NCBI RefSeq assembly: GCF_020991085.1
Contig: NZ_CP087719.1
Span: 5,211,001-5,275,000, forward strand
Direction: 5' to 3'
DNA length: 64,000 bases
Source of the DNA: Roseomonas sp. OT10
Lineage (GTDB): Bacteria; Pseudomonadota; Alphaproteobacteria; Acetobacterales; Acetobacteraceae
Program-made: the position numbers and the translations under genes
Notes under the pieces: model-generated
Told to the model about the DNA's origin: nothing
The model's database searches: none
Seen by the model: the letters and a program-made list of their open reading frames with translations, nothing else
In this document: piece after piece, positions 3,955-48,260 of the stretch
Numbering within the stretch: the first letter of the stretch is position 1
How the letters are laid out: each line of letters starts with the position of its first letter

Positions 3955-5118
3955 ATGTCCACGGCGATCGCCTTGCCACGCATCCTGCGCATCGGCGGAG
4001 GGGCCCTGGCCGAGACGGCGGAGGTGCTCGGCCTGCTGGGCCTGTCACGCCCGCTGATCGTGACCGATCCGATGATGGTCCGCTTCGGCTTGGCCGAGCG
4101 GCTGCAGGGCGAGCTGAAGCGGGCGGGCATCGCGGCGGATGTCTTCTCCGACACGGTCCCCGAGCCCGACAGCGACGCGGTGGACCGCGCCCAGGCGGCG
4201 GTGCTGGCCGGGGATTACGATTCTCTCGTCGCCCTCGGCGGTGGCTCGCCCATCGACACCGCCAAGGCCGTCGCGGTGCTGGCGAAGCAGGGCGGGCGGA
4301 TGCGCGACCACAAGGCGCCGGCGGTGAATGCCGGCCCGGCCCTGCCGGTGATCGGCATCCCCACCACCGCCGGCACGGGGTCGGAGGCGACGCGCTTCAC
4401 CGTGGTGACGGACAGCGAGACGCACGAGAAGATGCTCTGCATCGGCCCGTCCTTCCTGCCGGTCGCGGCCATCGTGGACTACGAGCTGACGCTGACCTGC
4501 CCGCCGCGCCTGACCGCCGATACGGGGGTGGATGCGCTGACGCACGCGATCGAGGCCTATGTCTCGCGCCGGGCCAACCCCTTCTCCGACACCTTCGCGC
4601 TCTCCGCCATGCGGGCCATCGCCGGCAACCTGCGCCGCGCCTATCGCGACGGCGGCGACCGCGCGGCGCGCGAAGCGCTGATGTTCGGCGCGACCCAGGC
4701 CGGCATCGCTTTCTCCAACAGCTCCGTCGCGCTGGTGCACGGCATGTCGCGCCCGATCGGGGCGCATTTCCACGTCCCCCACGGCCTGTCCAACGCCATG
4801 CTGCTGCCGTCGGTGACAGCCTATTCGGCGCCCGCCGCGACGCAACGCTACGCCGACTGCGCCCGCGCCATGGGTATCGCCGGGGCGGGCCTGCGCGACG
4901 GCGACGCCGTGGCCGCGTTGCTGGACGAGCTGCGCGCGCTGAACGCCGACCTCGCCGTCCCGGGCCCGCGCGCCTGGGGCATCGACCCGGCGCAGTGGGA
5001 AGCCCTGCTGCCGACCATGGCGGCACAGGCACTGGCCTCGGGCTCGCCCGCCAACAACCCGCTCGTGCCGGATGCGGACGAGATCCAGGAGCTCTACGCC
5101 CGGGTCTGGGCCGCTTGA
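3955..5118 (+). CDS. Iron-containing alcohol dehydrogenase
   Basis: This 387-residue protein has the family III dehydrogenase layout. An N-terminal dinucleotide-binding half carries the GGGSPIDTAK motif near residue 97, and a helical half carries metal-ligand segments including DTGVDALTHAIEAY and a later histidine in VHGMSRPIGAHF. Members oxidise alcohols or reduce aldehydes with NAD(P). The start at 3955 is supported by the ribosome site ggaggga placed 7 bases upstream. The longer reading frame from 3904 has no such site. It lies 126 bp after the Bug receptor and may belong to the same catabolic region. Its TGA stop coincides with the left edge of a dispersed repeat element. Confidence 0.93.
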   Translation: MSTAIALPRILRIGGGALAETAEVLGLLGLSRPLIVTDPMMVRFGLAERLQGELKRAGIAADVFSDTVPEPDSDAVDRAQAAVLAGDYDSLVALGGGSPIDTAKAVAVLAKQGGRMRDHKAPAVNAGPALPVIGIPTTAGTGSEATRFTVVTDSETHEKMLCIGPSFLPVAAIVDYELTLTCPPRLTADTGVDALTHAIEAYVSRRANPFSDTFALSAMRAIAGNLRRAYRDGGDRAAREALMFGATQAGIAFSNSSVALVHGMSRPIGAHFHVPHGLSNAMLLPSVTAYSAPAATQRYADCARAMGIAGAGLRDGDAVAALLDELRALNADLAVPGPRAWGIDPAQWEALLPTMAAQALASGSPANNPLVPDADEIQELYARVWAA

Positions 5119-5537
5119 TACGGATGGCGGGATGACCTGGCCGGTCGCGCTATGGTGTTCCGGCAGCGGCACCGGGAGGGGACGCCGTCCCCTCCCGGAC
5201 CCTCCCCTGCCGGGGCCACAAGCGGGCCCCGGTCCCCGCTGGGAGTCTGGTGCTTCCGGTAGGCGTCAGCCTGCGGGCTGATCCCGGGGAAAGCGCGGAC
5301 AGGCGGGACTCCAGAATAGCTTTGAAGGCATCAGCGAGTGCGGCGGCCGGTCCCGCCGAGGAGCATGGCTCCTCGGCGCTGTGACCCCGTGTCAGGCTGT
5401 CCCGCGGCAGCGCCCTTCGGGTCCAGGGCCCGCAGGGTCCTGGCGGAGTGGGGGTATCGGGGGCGAGGCAGAGCCTTGCCCCCGGGCCACGAGCGCGCCC
5501 CGCGCTGGCATGGATCAACGCATCACGCCGCGCATAT
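5119..5537 (+). repeat. Dispersed multi-hairpin intergenic element, copy A
   Basis: About 419 bp directly after the dehydrogenase stop matches copies D and E along their length and copies B and C in part. It contains a 12-bp stem at 5172-5198 with a 3-base loop, a perfect 10-bp stem with a 3-base loop at 5355-5377 (arms GCCGAGGAGC and GCTCCTCGGC), and a near-palindrome just before its right end (GGGGGCGAGGC and GCCTTGCCCCC). The two ends resemble each other in inverted orientation, starting TACGGATGGCGGGAT on the left and, on the other strand, TATGCGCGGCGTGAT on the right. Short frames inside it are not genes. It looks like a non-autonomous mobile or structured RNA element. Confidence 0.8.
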
Positions 5538-5701
5538 GAGGCCGGGGGGCACCGCGCATCACCACGCGGAACCTGTACCGGGCCGGGACTTCGCCGCCGA
5601 TTCCGTGCGTGACCTACCGGGAGCCGGTCCCGGGCCGCAGCGGCCGGTTCCCCAGCGTCATCCCCGCGCACCTCGGCCTCGCCCGCCTGGCGGGGGGTGC
5701 G
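5538..5701. other. Spacer between repeat copy A and the MerR gene
   Basis: No gene, RNA or convincing hairpin terminator is visible in this GC-rich 164-bp spacer, which lies 3' of the minus-strand MerR gene. Confidence 0.5.
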
Positions 5702-6331: not shown

Positions 6332-8641
6332 ATGGCGGATTCCGGCGGGCCGGGCACGGCGCTGTCCTGGCGGGTGGAAGGCATGGACTGCGCCTCCTGC
6401 GTCGCGAAGGTGGAGCGGGCGGTGAGCCGGCTGCCGGGGGTGCGCGACGTGCGGGTGAACCTGATGGCCGAGCGGCTCAGCCTCCTGGCCGAGGATGCCG
6501 GGTCCGGGGCGGCGGTGGAGGAGCGGGTCCGGGCCCTGGGCTATACCCCGACCCGCCTCGCCGCGGCGGGGTCGGCCGAGGCGGGCGGGGAGGCGGCCGG
6601 CCACGGTCATGGCCGCGCGCCGCATCCTGACCACGGCCACGACCATGGTCACAGCCACGACCACGACCGCCATGGCCCCGGCCATGCCGCGCCCGCCGAC
6701 GCCCACGGCCATGCCGCCGGCCTGGCGCACGGGCACGACCATGGCGCGGAGGAGCCGCCCGGCACCCCCTGGTGGCGCAGCGGCAAGGCCCGGCTGGTCT
6801 TCCTGCTCGGCGGGCTGGTCGCGGCCGCCTGGCTGCTGTCCCATCTCTGGCCGGCGGCGTCCTTCTGGTTCTACCTCGCCGCGACCCTGGCCGGGCTCTG
6901 GCCCTTTGGTCGGCGGGCGGTGGCGCTCGCCCGCGCCGGCTCGCCCTTCTCCATCGAGACGCTGATGTCCGTCGCTGCGCTGGGCGCCGTCGCCATCGGC
7001 GCGGTGGAGGAGGCGGCGCTGGTGGTCTTCCTCTTCGCCCTGGGTGAGCTGCTGGAGAACGTGGCGGCCAGCCAGGCCCGCGCCGGCATCCGCGCCCTGG
7101 TCGCGCTGATCCCCCGCACCGCCCAGCGCGAGGGGCCGGGCGGTGCGCCGGAGGAGGTGCCCGCCACGGCGCTGCGTCCCGGCGACACGGTGATCGTGCG
7201 TCCCGGCGACCGCGTCCCCTGCGACGGGGAGATCCTGGAGGGCCGCTCGGCGCTGGATGAGAGCGCCGTGACCGGGGAGAGCGTCCCCGTCTCGCGCGGA
7301 CCGGGCGAGGCGGTGGTGGCCGGTGCGATCAACGCCGAGGGGATGCTGCGCGTGCGGGTGACGCACGGCGCGTCGGACAACACCCTGGCCCGCATCGTGC
7401 GGATGGTGGAGGAGGCCACGGCCTCCCGCGCCCCGACCCAGCGCTTCGTCGAGCGCTTCGCCCGCTGGTGGACCCCGGCGGCCATGGCCGCGGCGGCGCT
7501 CACCATGCTGGTGCCGCCGCTGCTGCTTGGCGGGGAATGGGCGGTCTGGATCTATCGCGGCCTTGCCCTGCTGCTGGTGGCCTGCCCCTGCGCCCTGGTC
7601 ATCTCCATCCCCGCCGCGATGGCCTCCGGCCTCTCGGCCGGGGCGCGGCGCGGGCTGCTGGTGAAGGGCGGCGCGGCGCTGGAGGCGATCGGCGCCGCCC
7701 GCCGCATCGCCTTCGACAAGACCGGCACCCTGACGCTGGGCCGGCCGCGCGTGACCGACCTGCTGCCGCTGGCCGGGCAGGACCGGCGCGAGGCGCTGCG
7801 GCTGGCGGCGGCGGTGGAGCAGGGCTCCTCCCACCCGCTGGCGCGCGCCATCCTGGCGGCGGCCGAGGCCGAGGGGATCGGCACGCTGCCCGCCCTCGCC
7901 GAGGCCGGGGCGGTGGCCGGGCGCGCGGCGACGGGGCGGGTGGAGGGACGGTCGATCGCCATCGGCAGCCCCCGCCATGCCGCCGAATCCGGCGCTCCGC
8001 TGGATGCCGCCGCCGGGGCCGCCACGGAGGCGCTGGAGGCAGAGGGCAAGACCGTCACCGTGCTGCTGCTGGATGGGCGCGCCGCCGCGCTGATCGCGCT
8101 GCGCGACGAGCCGCGCCCGGAGGCCGCCGAGGGCCTCGCCGCGCTGCGCCGCCTGGGGGTGGAGACGGTGATGCTGACCGGCGACAACCCGCGCACCGCC
8201 CAGGCCATCGGCGCGGCGCTGGGGATCGAGGCGCGGGCCGGGCTGCTGCCGGAGGACAAGCTGCGCGAGATCCGGACGATGGCGGCGCAGGGCCCGGTGG
8301 CCATGGTGGGGGATGGCATCAACGACGCGCCCGCCCTGGCCGCGGCCTCCGTCGGCATCGCCATGGGCGGCGGCACCGACGTGGCGCTGGAGGCGGCGGA
8401 CGCGGCGCTGCTGCGCGGCCGGGTGACGGGGGTGGCCGAGCTGGTGGCGCTGTCCCGCGCCACCCTGGCCAACATGCGCCAGAACGTGGCGGTGGCGATC
8501 GGGCTGAAGCTGGTGCTGCTGGTCACCACCCTGCTGGGCATCACCGGCCTCTGGCCCGCGATCCTGGCCGATACCGGCGCGACCGTGCTGGTCACCCTGA
8601 ACGCGCTGCGCCTGCTGGCCTGGCGGCCGCGGGACGCGTGA
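6332..8641 (+). CDS. Heavy-metal-translocating P1B-type ATPase (Zn/Cd/Pb exporter)
   Basis: The 769-residue product pumps divalent soft metals out of the cytoplasm using ATP. Residues 17-23 (GMDCASC) form a heavy-metal-associated domain. A linker around residues 85-145 is very rich in HGH and HDH repeats and probably binds metal. The membrane core has the CPC motif at C418 and C420, the phosphorylated aspartate in DKTGTLT at D462, the HP dipeptide of the nucleotide domain, and GDGINDAP near residue 661. The CPCALVISIP context and C-terminal DTGATVLVTLNALRLL fit ZntA/CadA rather than copper pumps. ATG 6314 is also possible, but it would leave almost no leader after the predicted transcription start, and 6332 has a GAGG ribosome site. 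Confidence 0.95.
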   Translation: MADSGGPGTALSWRVEGMDCASCVAKVERAVSRLPGVRDVRVNLMAERLSLLAEDAGSGAAVEERVRALGYTPTRLAAAGSAEAGGEAAGHGHGRAPHPDHGHDHGHSHDHDRHGPGHAAPADAHGHAAGLAHGHDHGAEEPPGTPWWRSGKARLVFLLGGLVAAAWLLSHLWPAASFWFYLAATLAGLWPFGRRAVALARAGSPFSIETLMSVAALGAVAIGAVEEAALVVFLFALGELLENVAASQARAGIRALVALIPRTAQREGPGGAPEEVPATALRPGDTVIVRPGDRVPCDGEILEGRSALDESAVTGESVPVSRGPGEAVVAGAINAEGMLRVRVTHGASDNTLARIVRMVEEATASRAPTQRFVERFARWWTPAAMAAAALTMLVPPLLLGGEWAVWIYRGLALLLVACPCALVISIPAAMASGLSAGARRGLLVKGGAALEAIGAARRIAFDKTGTLTLGRPRVTDLLPLAGQDRREALRLAAAVEQGSSHPLARAILAAAEAEGIGTLPALAEAGAVAGRAATGRVEGRSIAIGSPRHAAESGAPLDAAAGAATEALEAEGKTVTVLLLDGRAAALIALRDEPRPEAAEGLAALRRLGVETVMLTGDNPRTAQAIGAALGIEARAGLLPEDKLREIRTMAAQGPVAMVGDGINDAPALAAASVGIAMGGGTDVALEAADAALLRGRVTGVAELVALSRATLANMRQNVAVAIGLKLVLLVTTLLGITGLWPAILADTGATVLVTLNALRLLAWRPRDA

Positions 8642-8990
8642 TGCGGTTCGGGGCCCGGAGCCGGCCCCCCCGGGGGGGGGAAGGCTCCGCCTTGCCCCCC
8701 GGACCCCCCATCCGCCAGGAGCAGAGCCCCTGGACCCCCGTTCACGGACGCGTCGGCACGCCGGGGAGCCATGCTCCCCGGCGACGGCGGCCGCAGCACG
8801 TGCGGCCTTTGATTCTTCTTCGGTGCCCCGCCTGTCCGCGCGCTCCGCGGGTGCCGCCCGCAGGCTGACACCGGCCACGCGGCGCCAGACTCCCAGCGGG
8901 GTCCGGGGCCCGCTCGTGGCCCCGGCGGAGGGGGTCCGGGGGAGGCAGAGCCTTCCCCGGTCCGGCGGTGCCACCTACGCCACGCGCCGC
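8642..8990 (-). repeat. Dispersed multi-hairpin intergenic element, copy B (diverged)
   Basis: This element fills the gap between the ATPase and the EF-hand gene, beginning exactly after the ATPase TGA, in the same orientation as copy D. It keeps the central hairpin at 8760-8782, but with arms GCCGGGGAGC and GCTCCCCGGC. One A-T pair of copies A, D and E is replaced by G-C in both arms, which is a compensatory change. The segments gactcccagcggggtccgg and cccgcctgtccgcgc also match the other copies. The first part resembles copy C more closely than D, so B and C form a subfamily. Confidence 0.7.
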
Positions 8991-8992
8991 CC

Positions 8993-9838
8993 TCAACGCA
9001 GGGCGAACAGCCCTTCGAACAGGCCGCGCAGGAAGCCGACCGCCTCGCGGATGCCGTCCAGCCGCAGCGGCCGGCCGGCGGCCTCGCCGCCGCCCGGTCC
9101 GGGCAGGCTGCGGTCCTGCATCAGCTCCCGCACCGACAGGCGGCCGTCGCCGTCATAGTCCAGGCTGTCCACGGCCAGCCGGGCCGCGCCCAGTGCCGCC
9201 ACCGACCCGGCGCCGACGGCCAGCGCGATCTCCGGCGTGCCGGCGCCCTCCCGGACGGCGATCATCCAGGTCAGGCCACGGCCCAGCCGCGCCAGTTCCG
9301 CCGCGCTGAGCAGCCCGTCGCCCGAGACGCTGGCCTGGGCGATCAGCGCCTCGGCGCAGCCCTGCATCGTCGCGCCCTCGCCGCAGGCCGCCTCGATCCG
9401 TTCCAGCGCGCCGAGCACGGCGATCCCCTCGCCATGCTGCAGCATCCATTCCAGCGGCGGCGTGGCGCAGCGCTGCCAGCGGCGCAGCGGCGTGGGGCCG
9501 GGCAGGCGGTCGTCGCGCAGTTTCGCCTCCGGCTCGCCCGTCTCCAGCATGCTGTCGCGGGCGCGCAGCATCAGGCGCGGCGCCTCCGCCCCGCGCGAGG
9601 TGCCGATGAGCCAGCCATCCGCCTCGCGCGTGGCGACGAAGCGGTCCAGGCGCGAATCCTCGGCCGAGAGGCGGGCGGCGCTGCGCGCGGTCAGCACCAG
9701 CATCTCCTCCGGCGCCGCGCAGGCCCCGGCGAACCAGGTGCCGCGCAGCGCCTCCGGGACGGGCCGCAGCTCCTCCGCCGCGGCAGGGAAGGCAAGGGCC
9801 AGCAGCAGGAGCAGGGTGGGGCGGGGCATGCGGGTCAT
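8993..9838 (-). CDS. Exported EF-hand domain protein
   Basis: This is a 281-residue protein of unrecognised function. The N-terminus is a signal peptide (TLLLLLALAFPAAAEE). A canonical 12-residue calcium loop, DYDGDGRLSVRE, lies near residue 228. A second, degenerate loop (GDGLLSAAEL) lies about 50 residues before it. Four cysteines in the mature part may pair in the periplasm. Its ATG overlaps the stop of the upstream five-repeat lipoprotein (ATGA), so the two are translationally coupled and probably work together in the envelope. Calcium binding is inferred from the loop and the partner role from coupling. No enzymatic motif is evident. Confidence 0.8.
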   Translation of the reverse strand: MTRMPRPTLLLLLALAFPAAAEELRPVPEALRGTWFAGACAAPEEMLVLTARSAARLSAEDSRLDRFVATREADGWLIGTSRGAEAPRLMLRARDSMLETGEPEAKLRDDRLPGPTPLRRWQRCATPPLEWMLQHGEGIAVLGALERIEAACGEGATMQGCAEALIAQASVSGDGLLSAAELARLGRGLTWMIAVREGAGTPEIALAVGAGSVAALGAARLAVDSLDYDGDGRLSVRELMQDRSLPGPGGGEAAGRPLRLDGIREAVGFLRGLFEGLFALR

Positions 9839-25727: not shown

Positions 25728-27257
25728 TCAGCGCGGGGGCGCCGATTCGATCCAGCGCAACAGCCAGGGGGCCTCCGCATCGCCCTGGGCGATGGCGCGC
25801 CGGTACCAGGCGGCCGCCTCCGCGCGGTCGGCCAGGTCGGTGCGGGCCCCGATCGAGCCGAGGAACAACGGGTCGTAGGTCTTGCCCATCCCGGTCATCG
25901 CCGCGCGCAGCCCGGCCTGGGCGGCCCGGCTGAAGAGCAGGCGTGCGGCGGAGATGTCGCCGAGGTTCAGCATCTCCTCCCCACGCCGCACCAGCGCGGC
26001 CGCCAGGGCTGGCGACGGGGCGGGCGCGACGATGGGCGCGCGCGGAGCGGTCAGGACGGGGGACGCACCCGCCCCGTCGCCGGGAGAAGGCAGCGCGGGC
26101 GGCATGGCAAGCGGGGGTGCCAGGAGCATGGCGGTGCGGGTGGGGGGCGGCTCCTGGCCCGATGGCTCGGACGGGGGGGGCGGGGTCGTGGCCTGGAGGC
26201 TGTCTGCTGCGGTCTCGGCGGTGTCGGGAAGCGGCAGGGCCTCCGGGGCGGCGGCCTCTGCAACAGCAACGGGCGCGGGGGCGACGGGCGCGGGGGCGAC
26301 GGGTACGGGGGCGACGGGTACGGGGGCGACGGGTACGGGGGCGGCGGGCGCGGAGGCAGCCGGCACAGGGGGCGGCAGCGCATCCGGCTCGCTCGGCCGG
26401 GCGACCGGCGGAGGTGGCCAGGCGGCGGGCAACGGGTCCGGCTCCGCCCGCTCGGCCATCTCCGCACCGGCGGTGTCCTCGCTCGGTGCCGCAGCGGGCA
26501 GGGACGGCACGGCCGCGGCCTCGCCGCGGGGCGGCTCCGCGGCCGACAGGGCCGGCATGGGCGGGGGCGCCGTGCGATCCGGTGCGGCGGGGGATGCGGC
26601 GGGCTGCGGCGGATCGGCCCTGGCGACGACCTGGGGCGACGGGGCGGCGGGGGGGCCGAGATACTGCAGCAGCGCGGCACCGCCCCCCAGCCCCAGCAGC
26701 AGCGCGATCCAGAACCAGCGCAGCGCGGCGCCGCCGCGTCCGCGGCGTGCCGTCGCCTCCGGCGCGGCCTGCCGCCCCGGAGGGAAAGCGGCCTCGGGGG
26801 GCTGGCCGCTGGCCACGGTACGCAGCATGAACTCGGCGGAGAGCACCTCGCGCACCCGGGGAACCCAGGCCCCACCGCCGCGCAGCACCAGGGCCGGCTC
26901 GGTCACGAAGGCGCCGTCGAGCGTCGCCCGCAGCCAGGGCAGGTCGCGCAGGGGGACCACCCGGTGCACGATCGGCGGCAGGCCGCCGAAGCTGGCGCGG
27001 AAATCCGCCTTCTCCAGGCGGCGGAGCAGCATGCCCGTCGCGTCCAGCGTCACCGAGGGGGCGACATCGACCAGCGCGATGCCGATCTCCCGGTGCAGCA
27101 GCGTGTAGGGAACCCAGCGCCGCGGGCCGTCGCCCGCCGTCTCGCGATGGCGCAGAAGAAGCCAGCCCGGCTGCATGCCGGCCAGGGCCACGGCCATCAG
27201 CTCATCGGCTTCCTCGGAAGCGGCTGACACGGGTGCCAATCCAGGGAGGACGTCCAT
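25728..27257 (-). CDS. Membrane-anchored protein with Pro/Ala repeats and a Sel1-like C-terminus
   Basis: This 509-residue protein has unknown function. An N-terminal cytoplasmic part of about 175 residues shows no family I recognise. One membrane helix follows (WIALLLGLGGGAALLQYLG, near residue 187), then a low-complexity Pro/Ala linker of about 200 residues that includes VAPVP units. The C-terminal 90 residues look like one or two Sel1/TPR repeats (RGEEMLNLGDISAARLLFSRAAQAG and AAAWYRRAIAQGDAEAPW). Such repeats usually bind partner proteins, so the protein probably displays a binding module at the end of a flexible periplasmic arm. It is 50 bp upstream of the TAXI receptor gene. Confidence 0.8.
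   Translation of the reverse strand: MDVLPGLAPVSAASEEADELMAVALAGMQPGWLLLRHRETAGDGPRRWVPYTLLHREIGIALVDVAPSVTLDATGMLLRRLEKADFRASFGGLPPIVHRVVPLRDLPWLRATLDGAFVTEPALVLRGGGAWVPRVREVLSAEFMLRTVASGQPPEAAFPPGRQAAPEATARRGRGGAALRWFWIALLLGLGGGAALLQYLGPPAAPSPQVVARADPPQPAASPAAPDRTAPPPMPALSAAEPPRGEAAAVPSLPAAAPSEDTAGAEMAERAEPDPLPAAWPPPPVARPSEPDALPPPVPAASAPAAPVPVAPVPVAPVPVAPAPVAPAPVAVAEAAAPEALPLPDTAETAADSLQATTPPPPSEPSGQEPPPTRTAMLLAPPLAMPPALPSPGDGAGASPVLTAPRAPIVAPAPSPALAAALVRRGEEMLNLGDISAARLLFSRAAQAGLRAAMTGMGKTYDPLFLGSIGARTDLADRAEAAAWYRRAIAQGDAEAPWLLRWIESAPPR
26265..26354 (-). repeat. 15-bp minisatellite inside the Sel1-like gene
   Basis: Six tandem 15-base units (consensus ggcgacgggtacggg, read on the plus strand) encode the VAPVP repeats of the linker. 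The length is a multiple of three, so loss or gain of units would keep the frame and only change linker length. Confidence 0.85.
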
Positions 27258-30011: not shown

Positions 30012-30180
30012 TGCCGGTGGGGGATGCTTGCCGCCCCGGACCCCCTTATCCGCCGGGAGCAGAGCCCCTGGCCCCCCGTTCACGGACGCCGTGCGCGCCG
30101 GGGAGCCTCGCTCCCCGACGGCTGCGGGTCGCAGCGCATGCGGCCTTGGGTTGCGCTTCCGGCGCCCTGGCGGAACGGCG
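30012..30180 (-). repeat. Dispersed multi-hairpin intergenic element, copy C (truncated)
   Basis: This copy starts right after the oxyR TGA and matches the first 170 bp of copy B (for example gagcagagcccctgg and ccccccgttcacggacg). The central hairpin at 30097-30119 (GCCGGGGAGC and GCTCCCCGAC) has one unpaired position. The distal half of the element is missing, ending at the dehydratase gene. Confidence 0.65.
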
Positions 30181-34672: not shown

Positions 34673-36515
34673 CACGAAGGCGGACAGGACCGAGGACCCG
34701 AAGCCGGAGAAGCCGGCCGAGCCGAGGCGCGCCGCGCGCCGGTCGCGCGAGCTGACGGTGCGTGGCCTGCCGATCGCCCCCGGCGTGGCGATAGGCCCGG
34801 TCTACGACACCACCGAGCCGCCGGCCGAGGCGCCGCGCCGCAACGTCAGGGTGGCCGATGTCGAGGGCGAGAAGCAGCGCCTGGCGACCGCCGCCGCGGC
34901 CTCGCGCAAGCAGGTCGCCAAGCTGAAGGCGCGGCTGGGCGTGCTGCCGGAGGAGGCGCAGGAGGAGCTGGCGCCGCTGCTCGACGCCTATGCCATGATG
35001 CTGGGCGAATCCCGCCTGCTGCGCGGCGCCCGCAAGCGCATCGAGACGGAGCTGCTGGCCGCCGAGACGGCCGTGACGGACGAGGCGGAGGCCATCGCCC
35101 AGGCCATCCTGGCGGCCCGGGACGACGACAAGGCGGGGCTGCGCCGCCGCGCCGGCGAGGTGCACGAGATCGCCCGCCGCCTGACGCGCAACCTGACCCA
35201 GGCCGGCTTCCGCTCCTTCAAGGACGTGCCGGAGGGCTCGATCCTGATCGCGGAGGAGCTGACGCCGGCCGATGCCGCGCTGCTCGATCCCACTCGGATC
35301 GCCGGGGTGGCCACCGAGGAGGGCGGCTCGGACGGGCACACCGCCATCATGCTGCGCGCCCTGGGCATCCCCTCCGTGCTCGGTGCGCCCGGCATCACCG
35401 AGGCCGCGAAGCGCGGCGAGGCCTGCGTGCTGGACGGCACCGCCGGGATGGTGGTGCTGCGCCCCGGCGAGAAGGCCCTGGAGGCGGCGCGCGAGGCGCT
35501 GGCCGCCCATGCCAAGGAGCGCAGCAAGCTTGCCAAGCTGCGCCGCCTGCCCGCCGTCACCAGCGACGGGGAGGAGGTGGACCTCCAGGCCAACCTGGAG
35601 ATCCCGGCCGAGCTGCCGCTGATCGCCCAGTCCGGCGCGCACGGCATCGGCCTGCTGCGCACGGAGTTCCTGTTCCTCAACCGCGACACCCTGCCGGACG
35701 AGGAGGCGCACTTCACCGCCTATCGCCAGATCGTCGAGGCGGTGGCGGGCGACGGCGTGACCATCCGCGTGCTCGACTGGGGCGGCGAGAAGGACATGGA
35801 GGCGCTGGCCGAGGGCATGGAGCCCACCCATGCCGGCCCCAACCCGGCGCTGGGCCTGCGCGGCATCCGCATGCTGCTCAAGCGGCCGGAGCTGCTGGAG
35901 GTGCAGTTCTCCGCCATCCTGCGCGCCGCAGCGCTGGGTCCGGTGCGCGTCCTGCTGCCCATGGTCACCATCCCCGCCGAGGTGAGCCAGGCGCGCGAGA
36001 TCTACGAGCGCGTCGGCAAGCGCCTGCGCCGGCGCGGCGTGGCCCTGCCGGAGAAGCTGCCGCCGCTGGGCGCGATGATCGAGACCCCGGGCGCGGCGCT
36101 GGCCGCCGACGCCATCGCGCTGGAAGCGGATTTCTTCGCCATCGGCACCAACGACCTGGCCATGTACACCCTGGCGGTGGATCGCGGCGAGGCGGAGGTG
36201 GCGCATCTCTACGACCCGCTGCACCCCGCCGTGCTGCGCCTGATCCAGTTCGCGACCGAGGCCGCGCTGCGCCTGCGCATGCCCGTCTCCGTCTGCGGCG
36301 AGATGGCAGGCAACCCGCGCCTCGTCCCCCTGCTGCTGGGCCTGGGACTGCGCAGCCTGTCGATGAACGCCTCCGCCGTGCCCCGCGCCAAGCAGGCGGT
36401 GCGCAGCCTGACCATCGACGACTGCGCCCGCTTCGCCCGCCGGGTGATGGAGCAATCCGACCCGAAGCGTATCCAGGAGCTGGTGATGGGCTTCGAAAGC
36501 GGCGCCAGAGGCTGA
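34662..36515 (+). CDS. ptsI: Phosphoenolpyruvate-protein phosphotransferase (enzyme I)
   Basis: This 617-residue enzyme I has a charged N-terminal extension of about 35 residues. The HPr-binding domain follows, with the active histidine H226 in GGSDGHTAIMLRALGIPSVLG, and then the PEP-binding barrel (LLRTEFLFLNRD, DWGGEKD, GAMIETPGAAL, FAIGTNDLAMYTLAVDR and a C-terminal SVCGEMAGNP with the catalytic cysteine). It takes phosphate from PEP to start the HPr-EIIA relay. No GAF domain is present, so it is not the PtsP form. The stop codon TGA coincides with the start of repeat copy D. Confidence 0.96.
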   Translation: MKTDTKADRTEDPKPEKPAEPRRAARRSRELTVRGLPIAPGVAIGPVYDTTEPPAEAPRRNVRVADVEGEKQRLATAAAASRKQVAKLKARLGVLPEEAQEELAPLLDAYAMMLGESRLLRGARKRIETELLAAETAVTDEAEAIAQAILAARDDDKAGLRRRAGEVHEIARRLTRNLTQAGFRSFKDVPEGSILIAEELTPADAALLDPTRIAGVATEEGGSDGHTAIMLRALGIPSVLGAPGITEAAKRGEACVLDGTAGMVVLRPGEKALEAAREALAAHAKERSKLAKLRRLPAVTSDGEEVDLQANLEIPAELPLIAQSGAHGIGLLRTEFLFLNRDTLPDEEAHFTAYRQIVEAVAGDGVTIRVLDWGGEKDMEALAEGMEPTHAGPNPALGLRGIRMLLKRPELLEVQFSAILRAAALGPVRVLLPMVTIPAEVSQAREIYERVGKRLRRRGVALPEKLPPLGAMIETPGAALAADAIALEADFFAIGTNDLAMYTLAVDRGEAEVAHLYDPLHPAVLRLIQFATEAALRLRMPVSVCGEMAGNPRLVPLLLGLGLRSLSMNASAVPRAKQAVRSLTIDDCARFARRVMEQSDPKRIQELVMGFESGARG

Positions 36516-36929
36516 TACGCGCGGCGTGGTGCTCTGACGTCTGCCGGATTGGCGCCCTTGGCCCGGGGGCAAGGCGCTGCCTCGCCCCCGATACCCCCAC
36601 TCCGCCAGGACCCTGCGGGCCCTGGACCCGATCAGCGCTGCCGCGGGACAGCCTGCGACGGGGTCGAGACGCCGAGGAGCCATGCTCCTCGGCGGGACCG
36701 GCCGCCGCCCTCGCTGACGCCTTCTGAGCTTTTTCGGAGTCCCGCCTGTCTGCGCTCCGTCAGGGTTCAGCCCGGAGGCTGACGGCCACCGCGTAGAGCC
36801 AGACTCCCAGCGGGGACCGGGGCCCGCTTGTGGCCCCGGCAGGGGAGGGTCTGGGAGGGGACGGCGTCCCCTCCCGGTCCGACGCCCGAACACCACAGCA
36901 CGACAGTTCACGACATCCCGCCGTCCGGG
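36516..36929 (-). repeat. Dispersed multi-hairpin intergenic element, copy D
   Basis: This copy of about 414 bp is in reverse orientation to copies A and E. It starts with TACGCGCGGCGTGG after the ptsI TGA. It has the central hairpin at 36671-36693 (GCCGAGGAGC, CAT, GCTCCTCGGC), the segment gactcccagcggggaccggggcc, and the GGGAGGGGAC/GTCCCCTCCC hairpin near 36855-36877, and ends at cccgccgtccgggt. The homology with A and E is readable across the whole length. Confidence 0.8.
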
Positions 36930-36989
36930 TGACGACCGGCACCTGGGCGTGGGCTTCCGGTGGGGGCTGCATTTCGTTACGTCTTGCGG

Positions 36990-47466: not shown

Positions 47467-47556
47467 CCGGGGTGACCGTGGGCCTGCCGTCAGGGAGACA
47501 GGCGCTGTCTCCCCCTGGTTCTGATTGTCGAAACACATGGGGACCAGGCCGCCTCA

Positions 47557-47969
47557 TACGCACGGCGGGATAACTTCATCCGTCGTGCTCTGGTGTTCCA
47601 ATGTCGGACTGGGAGGGGACGCCGTCCCCTCCCAGACCCTCCCCTGCCGGGGCCACAAGCGGGCCCCGGTCCCCGCTGGGAGTCTGGTGCTGTGCGACTG
47701 CCGTCAGTCTCCGGACTGAACCCTGACGGAACGCGGACAGGCGGGACTCCAGAATAGGTTTGAAGGCGTCAGCGAATGCTGCGGCCGTACCCGCCGAGGA
47801 GCATGGCTCCTCGGCGCCTCGACCCCGTCGCACTCATCCGCGCGGCAGCGCCGATCGGGTCCAGGGCCCGCAGGGTCCTGGCGGAGTGGGGGTACGGGGG
47901 CGAGGCAGAGCCTTGCCCCCGGGGAACGGGTACCACGCCGGCAGACGTCAAGGCATCACGCCACGTGGA
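47557..47969 (+). repeat. Dispersed multi-hairpin intergenic element, copy E
   Basis: This copy of about 413 bp matches A in the same orientation and D in reverse. It has TACGCACGGCGGGAT at the left, a GGGAGGGGAC/GTCCCCTCCC hairpin near 47610-47632 whose flanking pair is T-A (C-G in copy A), the central hairpin at 47793-47815, and gcatcacgccacgtgg at the right. The right end touches the TGA stop (47970-47972) of the minus-strand gene at 47970-48260. The left end is 90 bp after the yhhQ stop. Confidence 0.8.
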
Positions 47970-48260
47970 TCATTCCTCGGCCAGGCTTGTGAGCGGCGGC
48001 GCATCGCGCGGCGCTCCCTGCTTCTGCGTTTCGCCGGGTTTCACGGGGATGTTGGCAAATTCCTTCTCCGGCTGGTCCGGAGCGGCCGTGGCGGCGCTGT
48101 CCTGCGGCGATGGCTTGTAGTCTTTGCCCGGATCGAGGCCGGGGTTGGACGGGTCTTCCTGGTCCGCCTTCACGTCGTGCGGTCCCACGCTGGTCGGGCG
48201 GGCCGACTTCGTGCCACCGCCCCAGTTGCTGAACTCCTCGCGCAGCGTCTCCTCGGCCAT
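47970..48260 (-). CDS. Small hydrophilic protein of unknown function
   Basis: This 96-residue product is rich in Pro, Asp, Glu, Lys and Gln with no hydrophobic core, so it is probably disordered. It begins MAEETLREEFSNWGGGTKS and contains SNPGLDPGKDYKPSPQDS. The ATG at 48260 has a strong CAGGAGG ribosome site eight bases upstream, which is the main support for it being real. No family was recognised. It lies 70 bp downstream of glnD, in the same direction. Confidence 0.7.
   Translation of the reverse strand: MAEETLREEFSNWGGGTKSARPTSVGPHDVKADQEDPSNPGLDPGKDYKPSPQDSAATAAPDQPEKEFANIPVKPGETQKQGAPRDAPPLTSLAEE

Follow-up and report, generated by a model that had tools for sequence, protein, structure and literature searches.

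What is the element that recurs between genes of Roseomonas sp. OT10, so often beginning or ending on a stop codon, and is its structure of use to the host? The question arises from a stretch of 64,000 nucleotides of contig NZ_CP087719.1 (positions 5,211,001 to 5,275,000; here called the window), in which a first-pass annotation had pointed out five copies of an intergenic sequence with several hairpins. We report here that the copies belong to a family of MITE-like transposons. We consider it probable, as a whole, that this is a non-autonomous family sited at gene 3' ends, with a mirror pair of double hairpins as its cargo, an IS5-type mode of mobilization, and a role of the hairpins in RNA, the last two of these being inferred.

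Results

Copies in the window

The five copies lie where the first-pass annotation had placed them, in both orientations (Table 1). Copies A, B, D, and E were as described, but copy C is only half a copy. The triplet to the left of copy A doubles as the stop codon of an iron-dependent alcohol dehydrogenase-like gene that ends at 5118. Copy B fills the gap between the stop codons of a P-type ATPase gene (8641) and of a gene ending at 8993. Copy C is directly preceded by the stop codon of a LysR-type gene (Pfam); its double hairpin (30018-30076, minus strand) is matched by covariance model R2 with an E value of 1.4e-4, and it gives no match to the nhmmer profile at E 1e-3.

Table 1. Positions of the element copies and their parts in the window
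Feature	Positions	Strand	Evidence or remark
Copy A, left target-site duplication TGA	5116..5118	.	sequence, gene call, Pfam
Copy A, full element, terminal inverted repeats both sides	5119..5536	+	nhmmer profile 1-415 of 416
Copy A, right target-site duplication TGA	5537..5539	.	
Copy A, left double hairpin (hairpins a and b)	5172..5237	-	covariance model R2, E 3.1e-6
Copy A, central stem-loop d, CGCCGAGGAGC/GCTCCTCGGCG	5354..5378	+	sequence
Copy A, right double hairpin (hairpins e and f)	5418..5484	+	R2, E 1.1e-13; unit in R2 seed
Copy B, divergent, without recognizable terminal repeats	8642..8992	-	nhmmer core hit 8675-8965
Copy B, double hairpins	8674..8738 and 8898..8961	- and +	R2; both in seed
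Copy C, half copy: one double hairpin and central stem	30012..30180	-	R2; repeats D17, D20
Copy D, target-site duplication TGA	36513..36515	.	also stop codon of a PEP-utilizing enzyme gene
Copy D, full element	36516..36929	-	double hairpins 36564-36630 (minus) and 36812-36876 (plus)
Copy D, second copy of the duplication, TGA	36930..36932	.	
Copy E, left target-site duplication TCA	47554..47556	.	
Copy E, full element	47557..47969	+	double hairpins 47609-47674 (minus) and 47856-47921 (plus)
Copy E, right target-site duplication TCA	47970..47972	.	equals the TGA stop of the minus-strand gene 47970-48260

A MerR-family regulator stands beside the P-type metal ATPase gene that separates copies A and B, and by eye this gene has a histidine-rich stretch near its N terminus (6600-6760). 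Elsewhere in the window, a 15-bp tandem repeat of the type GCGACGGGTACGGGG (repeat family D1) occupies 26251-26370 within a high-GC stretch.

Ends, target sites, and copy number

Full copies measure about 418 bp and are bounded by inverted repeats (about TACSGACGGCGGGATG...). In the 1.664 Mb searched, 43 of 89 copies match the profile to within about 20 to 26 positions of both ends. A TSA triplet stands on both sides in 23 of the 42 full copies that could be scored, and the two triplets are equal in all 23 (TGA or TCA); the remaining 19 have no intact, equal duplication. When copies are delimited instead by a motif that allows TGA or TCA, the resulting 56, in part the same copies, contain 27 equal and 2 unequal TSA pairs (L021 and L047). 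The target consensus is GNC-TSA-GGC. Codon-usage gene calls predict no gene inside the element. With terminal inverted repeats, a target-site duplication, and no coding capacity, the family consists of MITE-like transposons. Clear terminal repeats are absent from divergent copies in this genome and from 22 copies of one sister species. Full copies differ from each other by 14% on average and the closest pair by 8.6%, so that no recent transposition is seen.

That the genome holds hundreds of copies had been surmised from the five in the window, and both of our counts bear this out. The central stem, at up to 2 mismatches, occurs at 235 sites genome-wide and at none in a reversed-pattern control. 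An nhmmer profile built from 25 full copies found 85 copies in a systematic 1.6-Mb sample (80 stretches of 20 kb), and 4 more in the window bring the number to 89, made up of 43 full copies, 26 with the core only, 15 with the right end, and 5 with the left end; together they account for 2.0% of the bases searched. The density in the sample, about 53 copies per Mb, corresponds to about 280 copies on the 5.33-Mb main contig, C1, as extrapolated from a sample drawn from this contig alone and covering 30% of it. Contig C1 is poorer in copies from about 1.1 to 3.45 Mb (18 in 37 sampled 20-kb stretches versus 67 in the other 43), a region whose boundary was set after the data had been seen.

Position relative to genes

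All positions given here are relative to our own codon-usage gene calls. Convergent gaps hold 33 of 42 assigned full copies as opposed to 194 of 1033 gaps overall, and divergent gaps, which make up 183 of the 1033, hold none of the 82 copies (of 89) that could be assigned. None of the 89 copies has a midpoint lying deeper than 60 bp in a predicted gene.

Of 42 full copies, 29 have a border triplet that serves a predicted gene as its stop codon (TGA in 28, TAA in 1), as do 18 of the 23 with an intact duplication. Where, as often, the border TGA is the stop codon of the neighbor, the element leaves that gene whole. An even distribution of hits over intergenic TSA sites and TGA stops predicts 10.9 of 42, and 16.6 of 42 once the C/G context is allowed for. 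Under a stricter control using the sites within each copy's own gap, from which 2 of the 42 copies dropped out for want of a TSA site in the gap, 27 of 40 were observed versus 21.6 expected (P = 0.019). The excess of stop codons thus arises mainly from the TSA target together with the location in short convergent gaps, and we rejected stop-codon targeting as a strong preference of the enzyme. Orthologues of the gene next to copy D end at the same residue or at most 2 codons away in 14 of 14 cases in the genus, as do those of the gene next to copy A in all 5 examined, and by eye no hairpin array was found in the 200 nt past their stop codons. Since these orthologues end alike without the array, the genes beside A and D were not truncated by the insertion.

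The hairpin cargo and its covariation

At each end of the core stands a 67-nt double hairpin, the same unit in opposite orientations on either side of a central hairpin. R2 finds the single double hairpin of copy C and both of those in each of the other four copies; of these nine units, the R2 seed includes four, namely both units of B and the right-hand ones of A and E. No Rfam family matches at its gathering score in the window or in nine related loci. Divergence from the consensus, calculated for 25 full copies, is 0.7% in hairpin a, 0.2% in b, 0.8% in e, and 1.8% in f; it is 6.4% in hairpin c, 5.6% in hairpin d, 11.5% in the linkers, and 15.8% in the terminal repeats. The mean divergence of hairpins a, b, d, e, and f is below that of the linkers in every one of the 25. 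The terminal repeats are therefore the least constrained part, contrary to what is expected if transposition alone mattered, and the 21 divergent copies inspected, which have no recognizable terminal repeats, still carry the hairpin array.

Compensatory changes had been proposed in two stems. We confirm the change in the central stem, GCCGAGGAGC/GCTCCTCGGC versus GCCGGGGAGC/GCTCCCCGGC; 72 of 80 copies have this stem without a mismatch. Its 11 bp contain GAGGAGC/GCTCCTC in 59 of the 80, GGAGGTC/GACCTCC in 6, and GGGGAGC/GCTCCCC in 5. On the tree of these 80 copies, the nine stem types require 10 changes versus 17.7 in shuffles; the variants thus follow the tree, which indicates few events inherited by many copies. 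The second proposal, a C-G pair in A replaced by T-A in E, does not stand: among 32 hairpins matching the pattern, the pair is C-A in 27, C-G in 3, and T-A in 2. As the C-A mismatch prevails, each of A and E has departed from it independently by a single step.

The broader view that structure is maintained at the nucleic acid level in this dispersed intergenic family is upheld by the double hairpin. In 130 distinct sequences, 97.2% of cells pair versus 84.1% in shuffles, and two-sided changes amount to 313 cells versus 79.7, where cells count sequences and not events; slid controls pair at 67.8% or less. The underlying alignment A2 comprises the best 150 of 190 R2 matches (the 130 distinct sequences) and was fitted to R2, which favors pairing, but the unfitted seed alignment gives 97.6% versus 90.1% in shuffles. 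R2 itself was trained on alignment A1, which has 24 rows, and the later match counts include some of these.

On the strand running outward from the center of the element, there are 125 G-T cells versus 9 A-C cells, or 31 versus 9 if the two pairs with the most G-U are left out. This excess favors RNA on the outward strand as the structured molecule; a mutational strand bias could also produce it. As RNA, the plus strand of copy A folds better than shuffles (z = -3.54), and the minus strand only moderately so (z = -2.65, with 2 of 100 as good). Between 4900 and 9100, a single terminator-like site (hairpin, then T-run) was found versus 0.4 expected; it is weak and lies in copy B; copies A, C, D, and E contain none, and the one site near copy D lies outside it.

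Occurrence in related genomes

Of 100 genomes in the family Acetobacteraceae, 28 have an R2 match; they represent 27 of 99 genera. Across the class, R2 matches 2 of 190, these being the window's own genome and, weakly, one of another family. Up to 52 candidates per genome were scored in the family and up to 27 in the class, so that counts per genome are lower bounds. In a 1.7-Mb genome of another family of the class (G184), at least 11 weak R2 matches (E about 7e-4 to 1e-3) possibly belong to an unrelated repeat.

The central stem takes species-specific forms. CCGAGGAGC occurs at the 235 sites in the window's own genome, and three sister species have CCGGAGAGC, a different but likewise matching pair of arms, at 77, 97, and 82 sites; the other eleven of the genus have it at no more than 2 sites each. 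The terminal repeats are multiplied only in the window's own genome (86 plus 81 matches versus no more than 3 in each of the other 119). Twelve loci elsewhere in the family were considered as carriers of the same terminal repeats and rejected. Only one of them (L287) has a weak second match, inverted, with 4 mismatches and about 145 nt away, and by eye neither a double hairpin nor equal flanking triplets are present there. In sister species G012, 7 of 44 ends match at 5 or fewer mismatches versus 3.5% in shuffles, the motif having been read off the same sequences. A sequence that follows the stop codon of an alcohol dehydrogenase-like gene in Methylobacterium dankookense, TGATACCGCGCGGCG (L112), resembles the terminal repeat of the element, perhaps by chance.

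In another genus (G109), whose loci were chosen among its strongest R2 matches, a clear inverted partner (E below 1e-5) was found at 8 of 20 loci; 13 of the 20 are within 30 nt of a stop codon, and 14 of the 18 loci with both neighbors called are convergent. Nine loci from other genera or species include three with clear and two with weak inverted partners, and at seven of the nine the unit lies 21 nt or less from a predicted stop codon. Judged by one flanking protein, the nearest named relatives are Pseudoroseomonas and other Acetobacteraceae (83-84% identity), although records of very close relatives may be missing.

Candidate mobilizing enzymes

The transposase families searched were DDE_Tnp_1 and Y1_Tnp. 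The genome harbors a 954-bp insertion sequence (IS) with an IS5-family transposase (NF033580) in 12 copies, each of which has a 3-bp TNA duplication (TGA in 5, TCA in 3, TAA in 2, TTA in 2). The element resembles this IS in the class of target, TNA, here TSA, but differs from it in its terminal repeats (TACSGACGGCGGGATG as opposed to the IS ends GAGCCTGATCCG / GAGTCTGATTC) and in having no transposase inside. Nine of the 12 IS copies (L248-L259) are on the 286-kb contig C2, and the four pairs compared are 99.9-100% identical, for which reason the IS has likely been active recently. A 3-bp duplication combined with long terminal repeats fits DDE transposases, and IS1031 of Acetobacter is an example of an IS5-family IS with a 3-bp TNA duplication. 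Since the resident IS shares the TNA target class, this class of enzyme is a reasonable assumption, and we infer that the TSA-duplicating element owes its movement to an IS5-type DDE transposase that acts in trans and selects TNA targets.

An autonomous element with these terminal repeats was not found outside the known copies in 1.66 Mb, and beside 30 of 34 DDE_Tnp_1 matches there were, element copies aside, only terminal-repeat matches with 3-4 mismatches. At L263 (C1:1032000-1036500), about 2.15 kb of IS sequence lies inside one element copy, just past the central stem. This IS was rejected as an autonomous parent: it has inserted into the element, the two pieces of which overlap by 10 profile positions at the break. 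At L269 (C1:3731500-3735500), the right half of an element (profile 247-415) and a partial match to a DDE transposase lie some 370 bp apart. Y1_Tnp (PF01797) has no match in the genome, whereas the same search was positive in 5 of 14 controls; a RAYT origin was rejected on this ground.

Discussion

Known bacterial MITE families, MITEAba12 among them, are short and intergenic, possess terminal inverted repeats and a target-site duplication, and have no gene of their own. The element described here is like them in all of these features. It is unlike the named families in carrying a mirror pair of a conserved double hairpin as cargo, in its 3-bp TSA duplication, which often coincides with a TGA stop codon, and in that no parent IS was found in the sequence searched. 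Rhizobial RIMEs and other alphaproteobacterial intergenic mosaic elements are large palindromic intergenic elements as well, and in this description they resemble the element. The bacterial MITEs Nezha and NEMIS are named in PMC3733652, and a Methylobacterium MITE, MiniMdi3, in PMC2680597. MITEs, IS5-type targets, and REP pairs at convergent gene ends are already known. What appears to be new is the element family, its double-hairpin unit, and the distribution of this unit throughout the Acetobacteraceae: there is no Rfam match, and a literature search, judged by titles and the openings of abstracts, yielded no published description.

Several explanations compete for the hairpins. They may be kept only for transposition or replication, in a purely selfish MITE of no consequence to the host. 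The MITE anatomy of the copies agrees with this, as do the species-specific high-copy forms of the central stem here and in the sister species. However, it is the terminal repeats, which a transposase would bind, that have diverged most, while hairpins a, b, e, and f have hardly changed; the array persists in the 21 divergent copies inspected that lack recognizable terminal repeats; and the double hairpin is spread over 27 of 99 genera, whereas the terminal repeats have multiplied only here among 120 genomes. We therefore regard a wholly selfish element as rather doubtful. Alternatively, the structure could act in DNA, as a cruciform or as a site for gyrase or a nucleoid protein, with compensation arising from hairpin-templated repair instead of selection on RNA. 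The inverted repeats are perfect or nearly so, convergent genes accumulate positive supercoils between them, and template switching can make the two arms of a hairpin match in one step, all of which would suit such a role. The preponderance of G-T over A-C on the outward strand is not something that a DNA cruciform would favor, and we hold a role confined to DNA to be unlikely.

Ordinary intrinsic terminators, duplicated at gene ends, would also be stable hairpins at gene 3' ends, and copy B does include one terminator-like site. Copies A, C, D, and E include none, though, the element is far larger than a terminator and mobile, and in a relative (L055) the double hairpin by eye follows an apparent hairpin-plus-T terminator; this explanation strikes us as very improbable. 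Least credible is a REP/BIME family moved by a RAYT (Y1) transposase, given that no RAYT is present in the genome, that the 3-bp duplication and the long terminal repeats accord with DDE transposases, and that the unit is a double hairpin of 67 nt instead of 20-40 bp. The resemblance to GTAG and CGTC REPs and BIMEs nevertheless goes some way, since these too have high copy number and form inverted palindromic pairs at convergent 3' ends, often less than 20 bp from the stop codon, which the ends of GTAG REPs are able to supply, according to PMC3733652; in the same paper, CGTC repeats are reported to be missing from Acetobacteraceae.

The boldest reading, which we put well short of an even chance, is that of an undescribed insulator that acts at the RNA level, mainly in Acetobacteraceae. 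It would consist of the 67-nt double hairpin, often in mirror pairs, would close convergent transcripts without a U-run, and would be packaged in transposons that insert at stop codons and so spread ready-made gene ends through the genome. In our main reading, which on the whole is the probable one, the host would retain the hairpins, after insertion in trans at a TNA target by an IS5-type DDE transposase, for a function in RNA at the ends of two facing transcripts. Since the two units of a pair point outward, the transcript of each gene would reach the unit that reads outward in its own direction only at the far side of the element, just before entering the opposing gene. There the unit could stop or trim the transcript and protect the 3' end of the RNA. 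The G-U excess suggests that each transcript uses the double hairpin farther from its gene. The element may serve as a portable gene-end insulator, as far as its sequence allows us to judge. If a role in RNA is true, transposition would deliver transcription boundaries to gene ends, and the family would show concretely how a mobile element can become regulatory punctuation. R2 provides a defined and searchable motif by which convergent genes may be kept apart in high-GC alphaproteobacteria of the Acetobacteraceae.

Some single units depart from this far-side arrangement. In the tandem gaps L347 and L348 of G109, the units read towards the adjacent stop codon, and there is no adjacent upstream gene on their strand. 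On the incoming strand, C is abundant in the spacer that separates the hairpins (ACCCCCACTCC in copy A), and an involvement of Rho through this spacer is conceivable.
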